Positions 1-9,984 of a stretch of DNA of 47,712 bases are shown here, in pieces. The position numbers were made by a program, and so were the translations under genes. The stretch covers positions 1-47,712 of the IMG/VR virus record IMGVR_UViG_3300005537_000010. One strand, written 5' to 3'. How positions within the stretch are numbered: position 1 is the first letter of the stretch; every line of letters begins with the position of its first letter. This DNA comes from a virus. The notes under the pieces are model-generated. The model was not told the DNA's origin. It did no database searches and worked only from the letters and a program-made list of their open reading frames with translations.

Positions 1-90
1 GCAATTGCCAATCTGCGTGTTCAAGGACAGGTACGTATGGCCGCGTATGTGACCGGTGGTTTGCGGGCTGCCTTGGAGGATTACCTCGAA
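1..90. repeat. 90-bp terminal direct repeat (left copy); circular join
   Basis: These 90 bases are identical to the last 90 bases of the window. The reading frame that starts at 47464 continues across the repeat without interruption into the left end. The simplest reading is a circular molecule cut open at an arbitrary point and written with a 90-base overlap, unit length about 47,622 bp. A real short terminal repeat is less likely because the repeat lies inside a gene. Confidence 0.9.
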
Positions 91-129
91 GAGGAGAGGC
101 GGAAAGCGAGCGAGCCATGGGGGGATTGA
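1..129 (+). CDS. C-terminal part of a small phage protein that begins at 47464
   Basis: This is the downstream part of a frame that starts at ATG 47464 and crosses the circular join. Joined, it encodes about 95 residues and ends at TGA 127-129. The C-terminal half is charged and looks helical. No family is recognised. It overlaps the next gene (start 117) by 13 bases, so the two are probably co-translated. In an uncircularised annotation this gene would be lost at both ends. Confidence 0.75.
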   Translation, partial: AIANLRVQGQVRMAAYVTGGLRAALEDYLEEERRKASEPWGD

Positions 130-464
130 GAACTTTGAGCGAGTTCCCTACCTGGCGAACGATGCGAGAGGTTCTCCGCGAACGGGTCAGGATGAAGCAG
201 GCATCGGGCGAAGAAGACTATCGCGACGGAACATCCGCGTGGCTCCTGACCGTTGCTCAACAGGCAAAGCTTGAAATGGAGATCGCCTTTGAAAGGCGTC
301 AGTGCACGTGGCAGCTCATTCTAGGCGCGCACTACGCAAAGGCCATGTCTGAAACAGACCCAGAACTGCTTCGTGAGGCGCTAGGGAAGGTGGCGGCTAC
401 TGCCATGGCATGGATGGAGGCCGTTGTGAAACGCACCAAGAAGCCCGAGCGGGTGCGACCATGA
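117..464 (+). CDS. Small hypothetical phage protein
   Basis: A 115-residue, mostly helical charged protein with no recognised domain. It starts at ATG 117 inside the end of the preceding gene and ends in an ATGA overlap with the next start at 461. This is the first of four tightly coupled small genes (117 to 1244) that read as one operon continuing from 47464. The coupling is the main support for its reality; no function can be assigned. Confidence 0.65.
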   Translation: MGGLRTLSEFPTWRTMREVLRERVRMKQASGEEDYRDGTSAWLLTVAQQAKLEMEIAFERRQCTWQLILGAHYAKAMSETDPELLREALGKVAATAMAWMEAVVKRTKKPERVRP

Positions 465-682
465 ACGAAGAAGAGGAGGCGAGAAAAGTGGCCTTGTCAT
501 TTGCGCGAGCCTATTTGCGACTCCATGGCGAAGGTCAGTCGGTAACCGTCATCGAGGTGGAACTCTATCAGGCGATTCGTTCCATCCTGCGAATAAAGGG
601 CGAGCTCTTGAGAGATCCGGACGAGGTCCGCAGAGAGTATCCGAATATGGGCGGCAAAATAGGGTGGGGGAGAGGCGAATGA
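461..682 (+). CDS. Small hypothetical phage protein
   Basis: Starts at ATG 461, which overlaps the TGA of the preceding gene (ATGA), giving 73 residues. An upstream in-frame ATG at 410 would lie deep in the preceding gene and is less likely. The N-terminus is rich in Glu and the body looks helical. It ends in another ATGA overlap at 679-682. No family recognised. Confidence 0.65.
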   Translation: MNEEEEARKVALSFARAYLRLHGEGQSVTVIEVELYQAIRSILRIKGELLRDPDEVRREYPNMGGKIGWGRGE

Positions 683-867
683 GCGGGCGACCTCCGAACG
701 AGCTTACCTTTCTCCCTAAAACGGACGAGGGAAAACCCTATTGCTGCGAGAGCTGCGGAGAAGTGAAGCCAATCGTCGATACGAGCATGCGCGAGCTCGG
801 CGATTGGCTTTGCAAAGACTGTTATCTCGAATGTTTCAAAGACCCAGAGGAAAAAGGAAACCTATGA
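679..867 (+). CDS. Small zinc-ribbon protein
   Basis: A 62-residue protein starting at the ATGA overlap with the preceding gene. It has two Cys pairs, CESC near residues 23-26 and CKDC near residues 50-53, the spacing of a zinc ribbon or treble-clef knuckle. Such proteins in phages often bind nucleic acid or host proteins, but nothing here points to a partner. It ends in an ATGA overlap with the next gene at 864. Confidence 0.65.
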   Translation: MSGRPPNELTFLPKTDEGKPYCCESCGEVKPIVDTSMRELGDWLCKDCYLECFKDPEEKGNL

Positions 868-1244
868 TCCGTGAAGCGATATTGGTCGAAGGAACGAGCA
901 CCGTCACGATGGCCGCATATTCGCTTGGAAGGGCAGGGCACGTGAATGAGGCCAAGGAGCTTTGCCGGCTTCTTTCTTTGCTCAAAGAGCCTCTGGCGCG
1001 TATCGGATTTGAGCTCGAGGGGGAATTTGGCATCTCTTTCACCTCAGCCCTGGATGACCGGGAGAAACGCCGCGAGGCATTCGACCAGGCTTTAAAGGCT
1101 TTGACGCATGCCATCCTGGACTTGCCTTTGGCTATTCGGGCGGCCGACGTTTTGGAAGGAAAGAAGGATGCCTACGAGCGATATTTCGCCGTCTGCAATG
1201 AGCTTTCGTCATTTCTGATTGAGATCCGACGGCTGGACGGTTAG
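864..1244 (+). CDS. Hypothetical helical protein
   Basis: 126 residues from ATG 864, preceded by the purine-rich GGAAAAAGGAAA that can serve as ribosome binding site. The protein looks all-helical with alternating acidic and hydrophobic residues. It is the last gene of the coupled set that begins at 47464. No family recognised. It is followed by a 79-base regulatory gap before parA. Confidence 0.65.
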   Translation: MIREAILVEGTSTVTMAAYSLGRAGHVNEAKELCRLLSLLKEPLARIGFELEGEFGISFTSALDDREKRREAFDQALKALTHAILDLPLAIRAADVLEGKKDAYERYFAVCNELSSFLIEIRRLDG

Positions 1245-1254
1245 CCCAAATTGC

Positions 1255-1270
1255 GCACACCGTCGTGTGA
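1255..1270. promoter_or_regulatory. Operator-like 16-bp palindrome upstream of parA
   Basis: The sequence GCACACCGTCGTGTGA has the form GCACA-N6-TGTGA. Matching 16-mers occur at 39676-39691, 39701-39716 and 47512-47527, and a variant at 44463-44478. Here it lies just upstream of the parA promoter. It is likely a site for a phage repressor, or alternatively a partition site for the ParA partner. Confidence 0.55.
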
Positions 1271-1288
1271 GTTAGGCTGCACAATTAT

Positions 1289-1316
1289 TTGCACATTTCT
1301 GTGTTGGGTCTAATGT
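1289..1316 (+). promoter_or_regulatory. Probable parA promoter (TTGCAC-N16-TAATGT)
   Basis: A TTGCAC box at 1289-1294 and a TAATGT box at 1311-1316 are separated by 16 bases. Transcription would begin near 1323-1324, exactly at the ATG of parA, so the message may be leaderless. There is no good Shine-Dalgarno site. The 16-bp palindrome at 1255-1270 lies immediately upstream. Confidence 0.45.
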
Positions 1317-1323
1317 GCGGATC

Positions 1324-2049
1324 ATGATCATTGTCGTGCTCAGCGAAAAGGGCGGGGTAGGGAAGACGATGGTGGCCATTCAGGTGGCCGTTGAACTCGC
1401 ACGCAGGAAACTGTCAGTCCTGGTTCTCGATACCGATCGCGGCCTAACCTTGTCTGACTGGTACGAGAAATCAGATGACCAAAGGCCCGCTGGCTTGAAG
1501 GTCTTGAAGATGGGCGGCACAGGACTGCGCTACCGGCTTGAGAATTTCATCAAGCGCTACGACGTCATCATCATCGATACCCCAAATCACGTTGGTCCAC
1601 TTCAGCAGCAGGCGATGGCCATTGCCGATCTTGCAATTGTGCCTTGCAGTCCCAGCGGCTCAGATGTCGACCGATTGAAGAGGACCTTGCCGCTCCTTGA
1701 GAAAGGGCAACGAATGAATCCGCGGCTCAAAATCGGGATCCTTGTCAATCTCAAGAAGGACCGCCGCTTCTCGGGACAGAACGCGAGACGCGTTCTTACC
1801 GATAGCGGCTTCTTTGTTTTCGAGACTGAATTGAGCGATTTGGCAGAATATGACTATTCGTACAATACCGGCAAAGGCGTGACGACCTATGCCTCTTGGA
1901 GCAATGCTGCACTTGAAATCAGAACGCTCGTGACCGAAATAGACAACTTTTTGAAGGAGACCTCCAGTGCCAGAAGCAGCCTTGACGAGACCCGCCCCAT
2001 CGCTCGTCGCCTCGCCAAAGAAAAAACCGCCCAAGCCAGCGCTCGCTAA
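1324..2049 (+). CDS. parA: ParA-type partition ATPase
   Basis: A 241-residue MinD/ParA-family P-loop ATPase. Near the N-terminus is the deviant Walker A KGGVGKT (about residues 9-15), with the extra Lys of the ParA group, and a Walker B strand IIIDTP lies about 80 residues later. Such ATPases move low-copy plasmids and plasmid prophages to daughter cells with a DNA-binding partner. I chose ATG 1324 over GTG 1315 because the hydrophobic beta-1 start matches the family and 1315 falls within the predicted -10 box. It is short, without the N-terminal HTH of type Ia ParA, so type Ib-like. It overlaps the next gene by 83 bases. Confidence 0.85.
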   Translation: MIIVVLSEKGGVGKTMVAIQVAVELARRKLSVLVLDTDRGLTLSDWYEKSDDQRPAGLKVLKMGGTGLRYRLENFIKRYDVIIIDTPNHVGPLQQQAMAIADLAIVPCSPSGSDVDRLKRTLPLLEKGQRMNPRLKIGILVNLKKDRRFSGQNARRVLTDSGFFVFETELSDLAEYDYSYNTGKGVTTYASWSNAALEIRTLVTEIDNFLKETSSARSSLDETRPIARRLAKEKTAQASAR

Positions 2050-2287
2050 GGCTTCGAAAGCTCATCGGGACATGCAGAAGTATGCTGCCGAAGAGCAGGC
2101 GCATACCGAGCAAGGGAACGAAACAGGTGTTTATCTGGGAAGAAATGGCGAAGTAAAACGACGCCACCACATGATGCTACCGCTTGAACTCTCGGCGCGT
2201 CTCATGGCCTACAGCAGTCAGATGAATTACACCGTTTCCAAAACCATTGAAAAGGCCATCGAGCTCTATCTCAAGGGAAAGGCGTGA
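1967..2287 (+). CDS. Ribbon-helix-helix protein, probable ParA partner (ParG-like)
   Basis: 106 residues from GTG 1967, with a clear AAGGAG ribosome binding site inside the end of parA. The N-terminal 60 residues are basic and probably disordered (Lys/Pro-rich). The C-terminal part (about 65-103) has the strand-helix-helix pattern of the MetJ/Arc ribbon-helix-helix fold. That is the layout of ParG-type centromere-binding proteins in type Ib partition systems, where the flexible tail stimulates the ATPase. The long overlap with parA supports co-expression. Assignment as partner is inference from fold and position. Confidence 0.7.
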   Translation: MPEAALTRPAPSLVASPKKKPPKPALAKASKAHRDMQKYAAEEQAHTEQGNETGVYLGRNGEVKRRHHMMLPLELSARLMAYSSQMNYTVSKTIEKAIELYLKGKA

Positions 2288-2503
2288 GGAACTCGGCGAT
2301 GATTAAAACGACGACGTCTTAGTGGCATGACCGACGTACTCGCCCAAAACCATAATATACAAGCGCACTTGTGAAGAACCGGCGAAGGCCTATTGACCAC
2401 TGCAGGTAGATAGAATAAGTACCACGTAACTGAGGCGGCATGGATGCCAGGTGCTTGTGGCTGCCTCGGATGTGGACTCTAATAGGACTTTGGAGGTGGT
2501 GTT
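2288..2503 (+). promoter_or_regulatory. Intergenic region with a weak promoter candidate
   Basis: No gene is seen here. A possible promoter is TTGACC (2393-2398), 17 bases, then TAAGTA (2416-2421), reading towards the lipoprotein gene at 2504. A short inverted repeat ACAAG-CGCA-CTTGT lies at 2359-2372. The ribosome binding site for the next gene, GGAGGTGG, is just upstream of 2504. No terminator with a T tract is seen after the partition operon. Confidence 0.3.
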
Positions 2504-2956
2504 ATGCGAGCACTTGTGCTTTGGGGAGCATTCCTCGTTGCTTGTGGTTCTGCCTCGACTCCAAATACTCAGGCTACGAATACGCAGCCGACTGGTCCAT
2601 CTACCCCCGAGAAACCCCGTCAACTTAACGAATCATGCGGCTCAGTGGCTTGTGATTCTGGGCTCGAGTGCGTGGCCAATTCGTTCGAACCCCACCTCGG
2701 GGGAACTTGTTTATCTGAAGTGAGCACACGTGTCCCCTGTGGGATCAACACCACCATCCCAATGGTATGCCCGGGAGGGCTCACTTGCGTGCTTCTTAAT
2801 GGGCAGCCAAGTCAGTCAGGTGGGTGTCATTTCGTTTCCCAGGCCGGAGAAGCGTGCGATGGCAATGCAGATTTCTACGCCGTCTGCGCACCCGGTCTAA
2901 CGTGCCGCGGGCCATCCGTTCCTGTCTCGGCCGATTACGGGGGCAACTGTCAGTAG
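2504..2956 (+). CDS. Cysteine-rich lipoprotein
   Basis: 150 residues with an N-terminal hydrophobic segment and a lipobox LVAC with Cys at about residue 14, so it should be lipid-anchored outside the cytoplasm. A Thr/Pro-rich linker (to about residue 38) is followed by three Cys-rich units built around C-x4-C-x3-GL-x-C style spacing (GLEC, GLTC, GLTC). Units of this kind are common in secreted proteins of Myxococcota. A strong GGAGG site precedes the ATG. It is likely cargo that changes the host surface (lysogenic conversion); exact role unknown. Confidence 0.75.
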   Translation: MRALVLWGAFLVACGSASTPNTQATNTQPTGPSTPEKPRQLNESCGSVACDSGLECVANSFEPHLGGTCLSEVSTRVPCGINTTIPMVCPGGLTCVLLNGQPSQSGGCHFVSQAGEACDGNADFYAVCAPGLTCRGPSVPVSADYGGNCQ

Positions 2957-2995
2957 GTAGTTTTCCAAACCCAATCCAACAAAAAGGGAAGTCCA

Positions 2996-4675
2996 ATGAC
3001 ATCAATTTCGATGTTTATTAGAATCGCTTTGCTCGCGGCCGATTTTCAGAGGCCAATTCCGCCACAACCAGCGCCTCCGCCTGGGAAGATCTTCTCTCCA
3101 GAGGAGCTCGCCAATATCAACGCAGAGCAGGCAGCGACTGGCGCGACTTGGATAACGAATAATCTGCAAACGCCTGAGGAATTCACAAATACCGCGGCCG
3201 TGAAAGCGTCGCAGCTTCCCAGCGTCTATGTCCACGAGCCCAGCTATCTGCGGCCCAAAGGTTATACGGATAGCGATTTCAAGGCATCTAGAGCGGTGAC
3301 TCCAGATGCGTTGATGAAACGTATGATGCCATCGATCTCCGCGATCATGCAGCCCGGTTACTTTGCTTACGAAGGCTACACCTACTCGAACATCGACTGG
3401 AACGGTGGCCGTGTCATGCATGGCACTGTATCCGTGTACGCCATCTATTATGGTCGCTGGGGACCCGACGCTGATGTAGATACCTTATCGAGGTTTTTCG
3501 AAGGCAACCTGGGGGATCACAATGACGAATCGACCGCGACTGAAAACCTTCATGCAACGCTGATCAACGAACTGGCATGGTCGAATCACTTTGCAATCAA
3601 TTCGACCTATTTCGATTCTCAGGGTCCCGTCGCCAATCACATTCGATTTGGCGGATCGGTATACATACGGACGGCAGTGGATGATCTAAATGTCAATATT
3701 GTCAGCCTCTTAAATATCGGCCAGATAGTGCAGCAAACCATTGGGGCAGGGCAATTGCCCTTTGACCCCAATGGCATTTACATCGTTTTCCCTTCGAACC
3801 TCGTGCAGGTGCCGGGTGCATGCTACGGATTTTGTGGACTACACACGTTTGCCGCTATCAACGGTCACAACATCGCGATTGCGCTGATCCCCAACCTCTC
3901 TAACTGCGGTGACGTGAACCTGACAGTATCGTACTGTGGGATCTATCCGCCGAATTCTAATTCGTACTCAGGATGGGGCACGCCCAACAATCTACTCAAT
4001 GGCGACTTACAGGTAAAAGTGATCACTCACGAAGTATCGGAGGCAGTGACCGATCCGGATCTGAATGCCTGGTATCAAGGGCCGGCAGTTTATGGCGGGG
4101 AAGAAGAAAATGAAGACATCTGCAATGTGAGGTCACTGATCACTGAAATCAAACCCGCTGGGATTCACACGTTTGGGCTGCAGCCTAACTGGCTCGATGA
4201 GCACGGCGGGTATTGCACGATGGGCGTGCCAGTCTCTGACTGGGGTGGCTGGCAAATGCAAACGGCCACATCGAACAGTGCGATCTGGGCGCCTGCCAGC
4301 GCCACCGATTTCAATTTTAATACCTCGTACAGCTCAGCCCAATTCCCAAGCGACAACCCTGGCTGGCTTTACTTGGCGGCCTATATGCGAAACGGTCCGC
4401 GCCCGGTCAACGCCATCTCTCTTCACGCGCGAATGGCCAACGGCGTTCCGCTGGGGTTCCCGCAGGTCTATTGGGTCTACGTGACTGATCCGACCAACAG
4501 CAGTTGGATTCCAATTGGGACCTATACGGCTCAGCCAGATCAGACTGGCACGGTGCTCATCCACTTGCCAAGCGAACGCCTAACGGTCGGCGTAATGGTG
4601 GTAGCCTATCGACTGGGAGTTGATGACCACAACAATCACTATTTTCAGATGGCTGAGGTAAAAATGTATCCCTGA
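2996..4675 (+). CDS. PHI-1/EXORDIUM-like secreted protein
   Basis: 559 residues. The N-terminus has only a short hydrophobic stretch, so export is likely but not certain. A Pro-rich linker follows. The central region (about 140-380) carries the marks of the phosphate-induced protein 1 (EXORDIUM) family: a Cys pair in CYGFCGLH (276-283), then HEVSEAVTDP (345-354), then an AWY segment and acidic EDIC (373-376), resembling a metalloprotease-like helix. The C-terminal 170 residues look like a separate beta-rich domain. The family is best known from plants and some soil bacteria, so it is unexpected on a phage. An AAAGGGAAG site precedes ATG 2996. Role unknown, probably host-surface or niche related. 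Confidence 0.6.
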   Translation: MTSISMFIRIALLAADFQRPIPPQPAPPPGKIFSPEELANINAEQAATGATWITNNLQTPEEFTNTAAVKASQLPSVYVHEPSYLRPKGYTDSDFKASRAVTPDALMKRMMPSISAIMQPGYFAYEGYTYSNIDWNGGRVMHGTVSVYAIYYGRWGPDADVDTLSRFFEGNLGDHNDESTATENLHATLINELAWSNHFAINSTYFDSQGPVANHIRFGGSVYIRTAVDDLNVNIVSLLNIGQIVQQTIGAGQLPFDPNGIYIVFPSNLVQVPGACYGFCGLHTFAAINGHNIAIALIPNLSNCGDVNLTVSYCGIYPPNSNSYSGWGTPNNLLNGDLQVKVITHEVSEAVTDPDLNAWYQGPAVYGGEEENEDICNVRSLITEIKPAGIHTFGLQPNWLDEHGGYCTMGVPVSDWGGWQMQTATSNSAIWAPASATDFNFNTSYSSAQFPSDNPGWLYLAAYMRNGPRPVNAISLHARMANGVPLGFPQVYWVYVTDPTNSSWIPIGTYTAQPDQTGTVLIHLPSERLTVGVMVVAYRLGVDDHNNHYFQMAEVKMYP

Positions 4676-5345: not shown

Positions 5346-5617
5346 CATTTCTGGAATCCGCGCTGAAAATTATTGTCGCTGGCCGAAGCGACCAAAGCGT
5401 TCTGAACATGTACGTTGTCTATGAAAATCCGAGGGACTTCCCTGGCGAATATATTGTCAGGCGCCACATCGTCACCATGAACGGCGACTTACCAACGGAG
5501 CAAGGATGGCGTACCCAATCACTTGAGTCTGCACGACTTCCTCTGCAAAAGGCTGGATTGATGATGTTTACGCGCCACGAAAACGATGACCCGGTTATCA
5601 AGGAAGTTTGGTTATAA
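5342..5617 (+). CDS. Small hypothetical protein
   Basis: 91 residues starting at GTG 5342, whose bases overlap the stop of the preceding gene (GTGA). The sequence reads as a compact mixed alpha/beta protein. It contains a pattern (MYVVYENPRDFPGEYIVRRH) often seen in short phage proteins of unknown function. No catalytic motif is visible. Confidence 0.6.
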   Translation: MTFLESALKIIVAGRSDQSVLNMYVVYENPRDFPGEYIVRRHIVTMNGDLPTEQGWRTQSLESARLPLQKAGLMMFTRHENDDPVIKEVWL

Positions 5618-5646
5618 AATGAAGCTCAGCTGCTGAGGAAAATGAA

Positions 5647-5904
5647 ATGTCCAATCCTGAAACTGAAATGAGTGACGCCAGGCCACTAAGCGAAGGGGAC
5701 CTTTCAGCCGTGTGGTTAACCTATAGCGGGGCCGATAAGGAACTTCACTCATGGCCGTGGAACCATGAACAGTTGGTTTTGCGACTCATCGCCACCATCC
5801 GCGCCCGAGATGCCGAGATCGAACGGTGGAAATTGGAACTAAGCCGAGTGGCAAACGAATCATTCAAAATGGCATTGGAGAAAGAGAAAGCCCGAAAGGG
5901 ATAG
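5647..5904 (+). CDS. Small hypothetical protein with C-terminal coiled coil
   Basis: 85 residues from ATG 5647, preceded by GAGG at suitable spacing. The C-terminal half (about 48-82) is a charged helix with heptad-like spacing. No family recognised. Its last five bases overlap the start of the first tRNA-like RNA (5900), so RNA and protein are probably made from the same transcript. Confidence 0.55.
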   Translation: MSNPETEMSDARPLSEGDLSAVWLTYSGADKELHSWPWNHEQLVLRLIATIRARDAEIERWKLELSRVANESFKMALEKEKARKG

Positions 5905-6111
5905 TAGGAGCCGGCACGGTGACCGGCTACGTATGGTGATAGGGATACGGGCAGGGATGGCGACTAGGAGTAATCCGAGCCAGGCGCACGGCCATCCGGA
6001 AGAGGAAAAAGGGCCTCGTAGTTTCCGTCGAGAGCTCCGCACCAGGATGCAGCGCCCCGGTTGCAAGCTGCATTGGCATTCCCAAACCCGGTTCGACTCC
6101 GGGCTACTATC
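5900..6111 (+). ncRNA. Structured RNA with tRNA-like ends (copy 1, about 212 nt)
   Basis: The ends fold like a tRNA. An 8-bp acceptor stem pairs 5900-5907 (GATAGTAG) with 6104-6111. The D-arm is GCCGG-CACGGTGA-CCGGC (5910-5927), with the GG expected in a D-loop. The T-arm is CCCGG-TTCGACT-CCGGG (6087-6103), with a perfect TTCRANY loop. Instead of a normal anticodon arm there is an insert of about 160 nt, including a 7-bp hairpin ATGCAGC/GCTGCAT (6047-6073). No CCA is encoded and position 8 is G, not U. A related copy follows at 6138. It is not a standard tRNA and no tmRNA features are seen. Confidence 0.6.
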
Positions 6112-6137
6112 TAGTAGGAAAGGGAATAGTAACTTAC

Positions 6138-6273
6138 GTCAGTCGGAGCCGGCACGGTGACCAGTAGGGCCAAAGCCAGACCAGCAAAATCTACTCGCGC
6201 GAGTAGAAAGGCCCGGAAGCGGAAATACGAGGACGAAATACGCTCATACCGGGTTCGACTCCCGGTGACTGAC
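6138..6273 (+). ncRNA. Structured RNA with tRNA-like ends (copy 2, about 136 nt)
   Basis: This is a second copy of the same plan. An 8-bp acceptor stem pairs 6138-6145 (GTCAGTCG) with 6266-6273. The D-arm block GAGCCGGCACGGTGACC (6146-6162) is identical to copy 1. The T-arm is CCGGG-TTCGACT-CCCGG (6249-6265). The acceptor stems differ in sequence but keep pairing, which argues that structure is what is conserved. The 90-nt insert holds a perfect hairpin TCTACTC-GCGC-GAGTAGA inside a GGGCC/GGCCC stem. It ends six bases before the ATG at 6279. Confidence 0.6.
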
Positions 6274-6278
6274 CTGAA

Positions 6279-6986
6279 ATGAACGCAGCCCAAGAACAGA
6301 AGCAGAAGCATGTGTCCAAGGAGCGGCCGATTCTCTTCAGCGGTGAGATGGTTCGCGCTATCCTCGACGGTCGGAAGACGCAGACACGGAGGGTGCTAAA
6401 GCCGCAGCCGCACACTCCAACGCCCGGGACTTATGCGGATCGATATGACAAGACGGACTGCTGGGCATTCTGGCTTCCCGATTTGCGGATGACCGAACCG
6501 AAGACATGGGCTTGTCCCTATGGCCGGCCTGGTGATCAACTCTGGGTGAAAGAGACGTTCGCGTTGGAGACCGACTTCAATGTTGGCATGCTAGGCTACG
6601 AACCGCCCCACAAAGATGGGCGACCCGTGAATAGGATCGACGATTCAACCTTTGGTTTGTACTGGGAGCAGGCGCATTACAGGGCCACGGATCCAGAGCC
6701 AGAGCTTTGCTATGAGGACTGGGAAGACCCGGAGGTGAAATGGCGTCCTTCCATCTATATGCCGCGCTGGGCTTCGCGTATCATGCTGGAGCTCACCGAG
6801 GTGCGGGTGGAGCGACTGCGGGAGATCAGCGAGGATGATGCAACTGCGGAAGCTCCTCCACGACTCATTACTTATCGGACAGCGATAGATGCTTTCAGCA
6901 ACCTCTGGGACTCCATCAACGCCAAACGTGGTTGGGGATGGAACCAAAATCCTTGGGTCTGGGTAATCGAATTTCGGAGAGTTTAA
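6279..6986 (+). CDS. ASCH-domain-like phage protein
   Basis: 235 residues. The N-terminal part carries RPILFSGEMVRAILDGRKTQ, followed by a TRR and later GDQLWVKETF. The C-terminal part has PRWASRI and ends in NPWVWVIEFRRV. This pattern matches a widespread phage protein family with an ASCH (PUA-like, RNA-binding) fold. Its substrate is unknown. Notably it directly follows the two tRNA-like RNAs, and an RNA-binding fold there may be meaningful. I kept ATG 6279, which lies six bases after the second RNA. Confidence 0.65.
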   Translation: MNAAQEQKQKHVSKERPILFSGEMVRAILDGRKTQTRRVLKPQPHTPTPGTYADRYDKTDCWAFWLPDLRMTEPKTWACPYGRPGDQLWVKETFALETDFNVGMLGYEPPHKDGRPVNRIDDSTFGLYWEQAHYRATDPEPELCYEDWEDPEVKWRPSIYMPRWASRIMLELTEVRVERLREISEDDATAEAPPRLITYRTAIDAFSNLWDSINAKRGWGWNQNPWVWVIEFRRV

Positions 6987-8809: not shown

Positions 8810-9049
8810 TTAAGACTTCTTCCCATATTTCTTTTCCCAAGCGATCCGCCATTGTACATCCTCGTTTTTGAGGACCTCCTGGTCGAAGGCAGCCAAAGCC
8901 AAACGTAGAGCGCTTTCTACGCCTGTTTGTTCCGTGGCATCGATAGCGTAGAGAAGCAGCATTCTAATCTCAGCGATTATCTTCTCTGTAAAGAGGTCCA
9001 TTAAACCATTTGTCCAGGCATCTCTGGCATCCGCCATGTCGGAACTCAT
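8810..9049 (-). CDS. Small hypothetical protein downstream of the recombinase
   Basis: 79 residues on the minus strand, starting in an ATGA overlap with the end of the recombinase gene. It looks entirely helical with an acidic N-terminus. It is the last gene of the operon that contains the HerA-like ATPase and recombinase, so it may assist them, but no motif is recognised. It converges with the lipoprotein gene ending at 8793. Confidence 0.6.
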   Translation of the reverse strand: MSSDMADARDAWTNGLMDLFTEKIIAEIRMLLLYAIDATEQTGVESALRLALAAFDQEVLKNEDVQWRIAWEKKYGKKS

Positions 9050-9984
9050 AGTCCTATCCCGTCTGAAGCGTTGTCCTCAAATATCTGCCCGTCATCAATA
9101 TAGCCTTCGAGCACAGAGGAGCCTTCCTTCCATCCTCCCTGCTTTCGTATAGACCGCCGGCTTTTTCCTTTGCGCGCCGCTTCAGTAGCAAAACCACGAC
9201 GCAGCGAGTGACCTCCATAGGAATGCGGATCTAGGCCAATTCGCAACGCATGGCGCTTCACTATTCGAGCTACCGAACGATCAGAGAGTTCAAAGAGGCG
9301 TCCCGAGCGAATACCTGATACGTCCATCCATGCTTTGAGTGCGCGAACAGGGCATGTCTCTGAACGGCCACCGTACTTGATGCCCTTCAATAGACCCGCC
9401 CTTTCCTGATCTGTTTTAGAGCTCCTCAAAAGTACAGTCATGCCATCCGTGTTGAACTCAACATCTTCGGCCATGAGCGAAACGATTTCCGAGCGTCTAA
9501 AGCAGCCAGCGAATCCGAGAAGCAGGAGCGCTCGATCGCGGAGCCCGCTGCGCGTCCTTGGTATGCCTTTTACCATCAGCCACAGTATATCCACGGTCAT
9601 TGCCGTTTTCTTATTGGGCCGTACCCCAAGTTGATTCCGTATTCCCTTGAGCACTTCTTTGACAGCATGCGACTTGGTTGGAGGTTCCTGAATCCCTTGA
9701 GCCTTATGGCCCTGAGATATGCTGACGACATAGCGGCGCAGCGTGGAGACCTTGCGGCCTTTTTTGGCCATGTCGGTCAGGAACAGTGCGACGGTTTCGG
9801 GCGATGCTGGATAACAGGAGAGCTTCTTTGATTCGCACCAGACTTCGAAGATGGCCCAATCGGTGCGATAGGCGGTTCGAGTTCGATCGCTTTTGGAGTC
9901 GCGCGCGAAACTTTGAGCCGACTTAATTAATTCGGGATCGAGATGAGCTAGCGGATGCTCAGTGCGGCGGGTGAGGCCCGTCAT
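9046..9984 (-). CDS. Tyrosine recombinase / phage integrase family
   Basis: 312 residues. The N-terminal half (about 15-110) is a SAM-like core-binding domain. The catalytic half carries the family residues: Arg163 in FRRSE, Lys190, His259 and Arg262 in HSLRR, Trp285 in the second His/Trp position, and nucleophile Tyr295 in EGYID. It cuts and rejoins DNA at short inverted-repeat core sites, either for integration or for resolving dimers. It is coupled by ATGA to the upstream HerA-like ATPase, and a dif/attP-like site lies at 11900. No separate excisionase is seen. Confidence 0.9.
   Translation of the reverse strand: MTGLTRRTEHPLAHLDPELIKSAQSFARDSKSDRTRTAYRTDWAIFEVWCESKKLSCYPASPETVALFLTDMAKKGRKVSTLRRYVVSISQGHKAQGIQEPPTKSHAVKEVLKGIRNQLGVRPNKKTAMTVDILWLMVKGIPRTRSGLRDRALLLLGFAGCFRRSEIVSLMAEDVEFNTDGMTVLLRSSKTDQERAGLLKGIKYGGRSETCPVRALKAWMDVSGIRSGRLFELSDRSVARIVKRHALRIGLDPHSYGGHSLRRGFATEAARKGKSRRSIRKQGGWKEGSSVLEGYIDDGQIFEDNASDGIGL

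Follow-up and report, generated by a model that had tools for sequence, protein, structure and literature searches.

Two neighbouring RNAs of a soil-type phage, each with tRNA-like ends and a long insert at the place of the anticodon arm and the variable region, almost certainly belong to a real RNA family. They lie in the window, by which the whole analysed stretch of 47,712 nucleotides is meant (IMG/VR virus record IMGVR_UViG_3300005537_000010), and the family has 16 members in 15 phage contigs, window copies included. It is undescribed as far as searches of Rfam, of an annotated phage collection and of papers show, the literature having yielded no description of such a plan. An earlier note, made from the letters of the window alone, had named a new RNA family as one possibility, and this has been borne out by homologues with compensatory changes.

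Copy 1 (5900..6111, + strand, 212 nt) begins with the acceptor 5' strand GATAGTAG (5900..5907), which forms 8/8 pairs with the 3' strand CTACTATC (6104..6111), and between these strands are found the D arm GCCGG-CACGGTGA-CCGGC (5910..5927, 5/5 pairs), an insert (5928..6086) that replaces the anticodon arm and the variable region and has no anticodon arm at the canonical register, and the T arm CCCGG-TTCGACT-CCGGG (6087..6103, 5/5 pairs that covary among the members). Copy 2 (6138..6273, + strand, 136 nt) is built alike, with acceptor strands GTCAGTCG (6138..6145) and TGACTGAC (6266..6273, ending 5 nt before the next start codon) that form 8/8 pairs including one G-U, the D arm GCCGG-CACGGTGA-CCAGT (6148..6165, 4/5 pairs and one C-A mismatch), an insert (6166..6248) that by folding contains the 7-bp hairpin TCTACTC-GCGC-GAGTAGA, and the T arm CCGGG-TTCGACT-CCCGG (6249..6265, 5/5 pairs). 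Two linker bases separate the acceptor 5' strand from the D arm in both copies, the T arm joins the 3' acceptor strand without a gap, and CCA is not encoded, neither here nor in the family. All this agrees with the earlier note, which had placed two elements at these positions, with acceptor stems of 8 bp that are unlike in sequence but paired, a T arm with a TTCGACT loop, no CCA, and a D-arm block common to both; this block, the 17-nt GAGCCGGCACGGTGACC, is present twice in the window, with a chance expectation of 0.08 at up to three mismatches. Its insert lengths of about 160 and 90 nt were right in that they differ, and with the boundaries chosen in the present analysis, on which such values depend, they come to 159 and 83 nt.

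Free folding regained the outer acceptor/T architecture in both copies. In whole-molecule folding energy, copy 1 does not stand out (z -1.07), and the value of copy 2 is moderately low (z -2.77); as folding energy is weak evidence alone, the case had to rest on comparison. ARAGORN at defaults reported no tRNA or tmRNA in the window or on the isolated RNAs, and Rfam gave no match at gathering in the window and none for 5600-6400 even at E<=10, so that this class escapes Rfam as well as tRNA-finding tools in their default settings. No promoter was seen at the window copies.

Comparative evidence for the family

IMG/VR was searched by D-arm and T-arm patterns and then by covariance model. The D-arm scans with 15-mers and 17-mers gave mostly chance matches: the 17-mer scan pointed to eight contigs, and while both the acceptor and the T arm are paired in L126, the remaining seven are due to chance. 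A long-insert pattern scan gave two matches, neither of which extended to the family motif. Gapped patterns of D loop and T loop added L170, L171, L181 and L182, and later also L249 and L320. A first covariance model (R1), made from eight members with copy 2 in and copy 1 out, recovered L278 (62 bits, E 1e-11) and window copy 1 (40.1 bits), and a scan with a relaxed D loop together with R1 added L360, L390, L386, L423 and L377, and more weakly L418, all of these being scored by R1 without belonging to it. A later model (R2) includes both window copies, copy 1 scoring 84 bits as a member. The covariance-model search that the earlier note had proposed has thus led to further members.

In the alignment of the 16 members, 97.9% of the 288 cells are paired, changes on both sides occur in 14 of the 18 pairs, and the covariation score is 0.785, vs 0.179 for shuffled alignments and no more than 0.13 when the structure is slid. 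The acceptor stem has a different sequence in each member, yet its pairing is kept. As a 7-bp acceptor pairing had served as an acceptance criterion and thereby helped to select some members, all candidates with a D motif and a T arm in fixed register were examined, and they fall into two groups, with one to five acceptor pairs in 32 candidates, six in none and seven in 15, the latter being 13 family members and two jumbo-phage tRNA-like RNAs (see below). This bimodality was one control for the pairing-based selection; the others were the free changes in the D stem, which covaries (GCCGG/CCGGC, GCGGG/CCCGC, GCTGG/CCAGC), and the outermost, eighth acceptor pair, which was not required for selection and is standard in 12 of the 16 members and C-A or A-C in the other four. 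The geometry of 8+5 acceptor/T pairs that had been read from the two copies is thereby upheld for the family, and the comparison shows an acceptor/T helix of 13 layers (8+5 bp) in which the acceptor sequence is free but paired.

Further features are those of a tRNA: the acceptor and T stems stack, the T loop fits TTCRANY (it is of the canonical type TTCGACT in 15/16 members), and there is a GG in the D loop. The latter was invariant in the first nine members aligned and is near-invariant in the whole family, with CACGG[T/C/A]GA in 15/16 members and a deviating AAGGTAGG in L418. An A directly 5' of the T stem is found in 16/16. The D loop alone is not diagnostic, since CACGGTGA occurs also in a tRNA-Pro of L253, with the D arm GGGG-CACGGTGA-CCCC, which means that the family D loop can be part of a real phage tRNA. 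L253 is a phage contig of 103 kb that has 33 tRNA genes at positions 1-3500.

The inserts range from 57 to 159 nt and are not conserved, and no common fold emerged among them. Only the inserts of L320 and L418 are clearly alike, both starting with CAGCAACAG-CCTGCCGC. In L278 (455-569, - strand), the 7 nt of an insert hairpin loop, GATGTGG, are the complement of CCACATC in the tail that leads to the T stem, and a pseudoknot may form there.

Relation to known RNAs

Jumbo-phage contigs do hold tRNA-like genes with an anticodon arm and a conserved variable-region insert of about 55 nt, one of them being scored as tRNA by Rfam, and in that light the members could be taken for ordinary tRNA genes with an intron or a giant variable arm. 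This is scarcely conceivable for the family, in which an anticodon arm with a 5-bp stem and a 7-nt loop after the D arm occurs in 0/16 members, vs 7/11 of the jumbo-phage RNAs, in line with the absence of an anticodon arm that the earlier note had claimed for the two copies. Anticodon stems interrupted by an intron, with 5/5 pairs and a short variable loop, were likewise found in 0/16 members, vs 0.8 expected by chance, and in the intron mode of ARAGORN with a lowered threshold the anticodon and the intron differ for almost every member; with introns allowed, 2/16 members pass, and their anticodons are unrelated. An intron-bearing tRNA has therefore been rejected, as a canonical or intron-split anticodon arm is absent in the 16 members.

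tmRNA (ssrA) comes closer, as its tRNA-like domain has the same overall plan, with acceptor and T arm and a long insert in place of the anticodon arm, and the members might accordingly be read as tmRNA-like RNAs, either minimal or divergent, whose inserts contain a short reading frame. Yet this is highly improbable. The members have a true D stem, their inserts are unconserved and go down to 57 nt, and the third pair of the 7-bp acceptor is AU in 7, UA in 4, GC in 3, GU in 1 and UG in 1, so that the G-U identity pair of the tmRNA type is present in at most 1/16. A shared reading frame or tag-like end was not seen by eye in the three-frame translation of nine members, and a translated insert has been set aside as a general feature. 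ARAGORN reports no tmRNA at default and a single one (L423) only at a relaxed score, and Rfam finds no tmRNA in the window or in L320. The tmRNA reading has been rejected on the D stem, the rarity of a G3-U70 identity pair, the short inserts and the lack of a tmRNA match at default (ARAGORN) or in the window and L320 (Rfam). As the earlier note had expected, neither the two copies nor the family are confidently fitted by a tRNA, tmRNA or intron model; the ARAGORN run that it had proposed is silent at defaults and not at relaxed settings, where the anticodons are inconsistent and the one tmRNA appears.

With bacterial tRNA-Sec (selC) the family shares the 8+5 acceptor/T geometry. In E. coli, the T loop of tRNA-Sec likewise reads TTCGACT, and its D arm includes CGGTGA. 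Unlike tRNA-Sec, the family has no anticodon arm and hence no UCA anticodon, its D arm has 5 bp with an 8-nt loop, and its acceptor sequence is unconstrained.

The tRNA-like genes of the jumbo phages are found in contigs of 192-437 kb (L359 3100-4010, + strand; L407 4751-6143, - strand; L409 5759-6100, - strand; L414 1568-1701; L424 13781-13904), partly in tandem, and are missed by ARAGORN at default. Like the family, they have tRNA-like ends and an insert that ends just 5' of the T stem, but most retain the anticodon arm, and all of them contain the conserved insert of about 55 nt, which runs from an ACCTC-hairpin to TACAAGC ahead of the T stem and is absent from the window family. Some of their anticodon loops are canonical (e.g. 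CTCTTAA), and in several position 33 is A and not U. The jumbo-phage tRNA region of L359 also contains a group I intron (1948-2178, + strand; Rfam, 76.6 bits).

The closest known RNA is rnaC of phage T4 (species 1 RNA), which was overlooked in the earlier note's statement that no described family has this plan. Its annotation is that of a small, stable RNA, 139 nt long (NC_000866 70908-71046; - strand in L446, 409-547), and it adjoins tRNAs as an independent non-coding phage RNA. A Northern blot has confirmed that it is a late RNA (PMC9697503), and the function of rnaC and rnaD is still unknown (PMC3014915). The comparison comprised four sequences, T4 (L446) and the relatives L447-L449. The 3' end of T4 rnaC is a tRNA-like T arm, CCGGG-TTCGAAT-CCCGG, with an A before the T stem, and the ends pair as a 7-bp acceptor; two U-U mismatches interrupt it in T4, and proper pairs take their place in phage phiR1-RT, where it is complete and compensated, the acceptor and T stems being compensated among the relatives. 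Like in the family, acceptor and T arm close a long insert, an A precedes the T stem, and an anticodon arm is not evident, as judged from sequence and fold. Unlike in the family, there is no family-type D arm, and the insert sequence is unrelated; R2 matches only the T arm of T4 rnaC (14.4 bits). The sequences thus suggest a resemblance of plan only, common descent being unsupported. The window family is accordingly grouped here with the tRNA-mimic phage RNAs of the T4 rnaC-like kind, which is known but orphan.

Genomic setting and possible role

Upstream of the two copies there is an ORF of 85 aa without a family (5647..5904, + strand), the end of which, including the stop codon, overlaps the acceptor strand of copy 1 by 5 nt, and downstream, 5 nt after copy 2, an ORF of 235 aa starts (6279..6986, + strand) that belongs to PHROG 874 (function unknown) and is distantly ASCH-like. 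The earlier note had placed the RNAs between a coding gene and an ASCH-type gene; they are indeed flanked by two genes, but the first nucleotides of copy 1 still belong to the upstream one, and the name of the other is weakly supported, as the protein itself has no Pfam hit and its relatives match ASCH only below the cut-off. These relatives, at 33 loci in viral contigs (32-49% identity), have no such RNA found beside them, and a functional link of RNA and ASCH protein has been rejected. The association is weak and not general also in the family, with different downstream genes in L126 (where it is RecA-like), L360, L320 and L249. As the inspected neighbours are different, the RNA is an independent unit. 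The members occupy intergenic gaps whose flanking genes share one strand; in L418 and L249 longer ORFs extend over the RNA, and the gene boundaries are uncertain there. A start codon can come soon after the RNA, at 0 nt in L278 (ATG directly after the acceptor), 3 nt in L171 and 5 nt in window copy 2. Directly 3' of the L181 copy there is a terminator-like hairpin with a T-run. Directly upstream of the RNA of L126, at about 3200-3312, a tRNA-Lys-like cloverleaf with the anticodon loop TACTTAA is found, on which ARAGORN is silent.

From these data it can be proposed, tentatively, that the window RNAs are excised and stable tRNA-mimicking non-coding RNAs with a replaceable insert. The RNA would be co-transcribed with the neighbouring genes, its D and T loops would fold together into a tRNA elbow, and, by analogy to the maturation of tRNAs, it would be cut by RNase P of the host at its 5' end, with 3' trimming by RNase Z or exonucleases. 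Like T4 rnaC, it would then persist as a stable RNA during infection. The tRNA-like end may serve as a module for maturation and stability, and the insert could be the phage-specific working part that acts in trans, as might be the case in T4 rnaC. That the elbow parts are conserved and that the acceptor and the insert are free points to the tRNA-like part as the site that processing enzymes recognise and that protects from decay, and to the insert as the working part. The unconserved inserts fit such a replaceable part, but equally well a purely structural or a cis role. The 8+5 geometry, the free acceptor sequence and the absence of an anticodon arm argue against an amino-acid carrier in elongation.

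Two other functions have to be weighed. The fold could be processing punctuation in cis, which according to the tRNA punctuation model would only signal RNase P and RNase Z to separate the flanking mRNAs, and the position in gaps between same-strand genes, a start codon that can follow within 0-50 nt and the lack of conservation of the inserts all fit with this. For punctuation a plain tRNA-like hairpin would be enough, however, which explains neither the presence of inserts of 57-159 nt nor the near-invariance of the D loop; also the two tandem copies of the window, with no gene between them, and neighbouring genes without a common theme speak against it, so that punctuation is unlikely to be the function. 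The elbow mimic could also be a decoy that occupies a tRNA-recognising host or defence protein and thereby protects phage or host tRNAs, candidate targets being tRNA-cleaving defence toxins and tRNA-modifying or tRNA-binding factors. In favour of a decoy, conservation is highest in the D and T loops, which are of the elbow type, and the acceptor sequence is free; phage tRNAs are also known to counter tRNA-targeting defences such as retrons (PMC11555353) and Septu (PMC13096335). But most of the tRNA-cleaving defences known so far recognise the anticodon arm or the variable loop, like Septu, which reads the variable loop of tRNA-Tyr (PMC13096335), and both are absent in the family; neither would a decoy need a long variable insert, and this function, too, is improbable.

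The excised, stable RNA with its replaceable insert would, with the same reserve as above, stand for an undescribed phage class of tRNA-mimic RNAs that share the plan of the T4 species 1 RNA, in which the elbow may be a handle for maturation and protection on a variable, trans-acting insert. If this is true, the tRNA elbow handle is a general phage strategy and not an oddity of T4. With 16 members and a covariance model available, and with the near-invariant elbow usable as bait, the role of phage tRNA-like non-coding RNAs becomes directly testable.

Distribution and the window phage

The family is known here only from phage and prophage contigs of IMG/VR. In 84,980 cellular genomes, a single scan with an exact pattern, which needed a GG...CC-closed T stem and inserts of up to about 120 nt and hence misses CG-closed members such as L320 and L278, gave 18 matches, none with a paired acceptor, and in 396 Acidobacteriota genomes there were two pattern matches, neither of which is backed by the covariance model. 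When all members were compared with 50,697 phage records by BLASTN, nothing was found at E<=0.1. In the case of L126, a TIGR02996 domain that is encoded on the contig suggests a Gemmata-type (planctomycete) host. L320 has an integrase-like gene, and as the name of this contig indicates an IMG isolate record, a cultured host may exist.

The window phage itself has genes for a ParA-like protein (1315-2049, + strand), an integrase (9046-9984, - strand), a tail sheath, a portal and a terminase, and judged by these genes it looks like a temperate phage with a contractile tail. The ParA-like partition protein and the integrase thus occur together in this phage. At 2996-4675 (+ strand), it also encodes a protein of 559 aa whose Phi_1 domain (phosphate-induced protein; E 2e-13) is odd for a phage.
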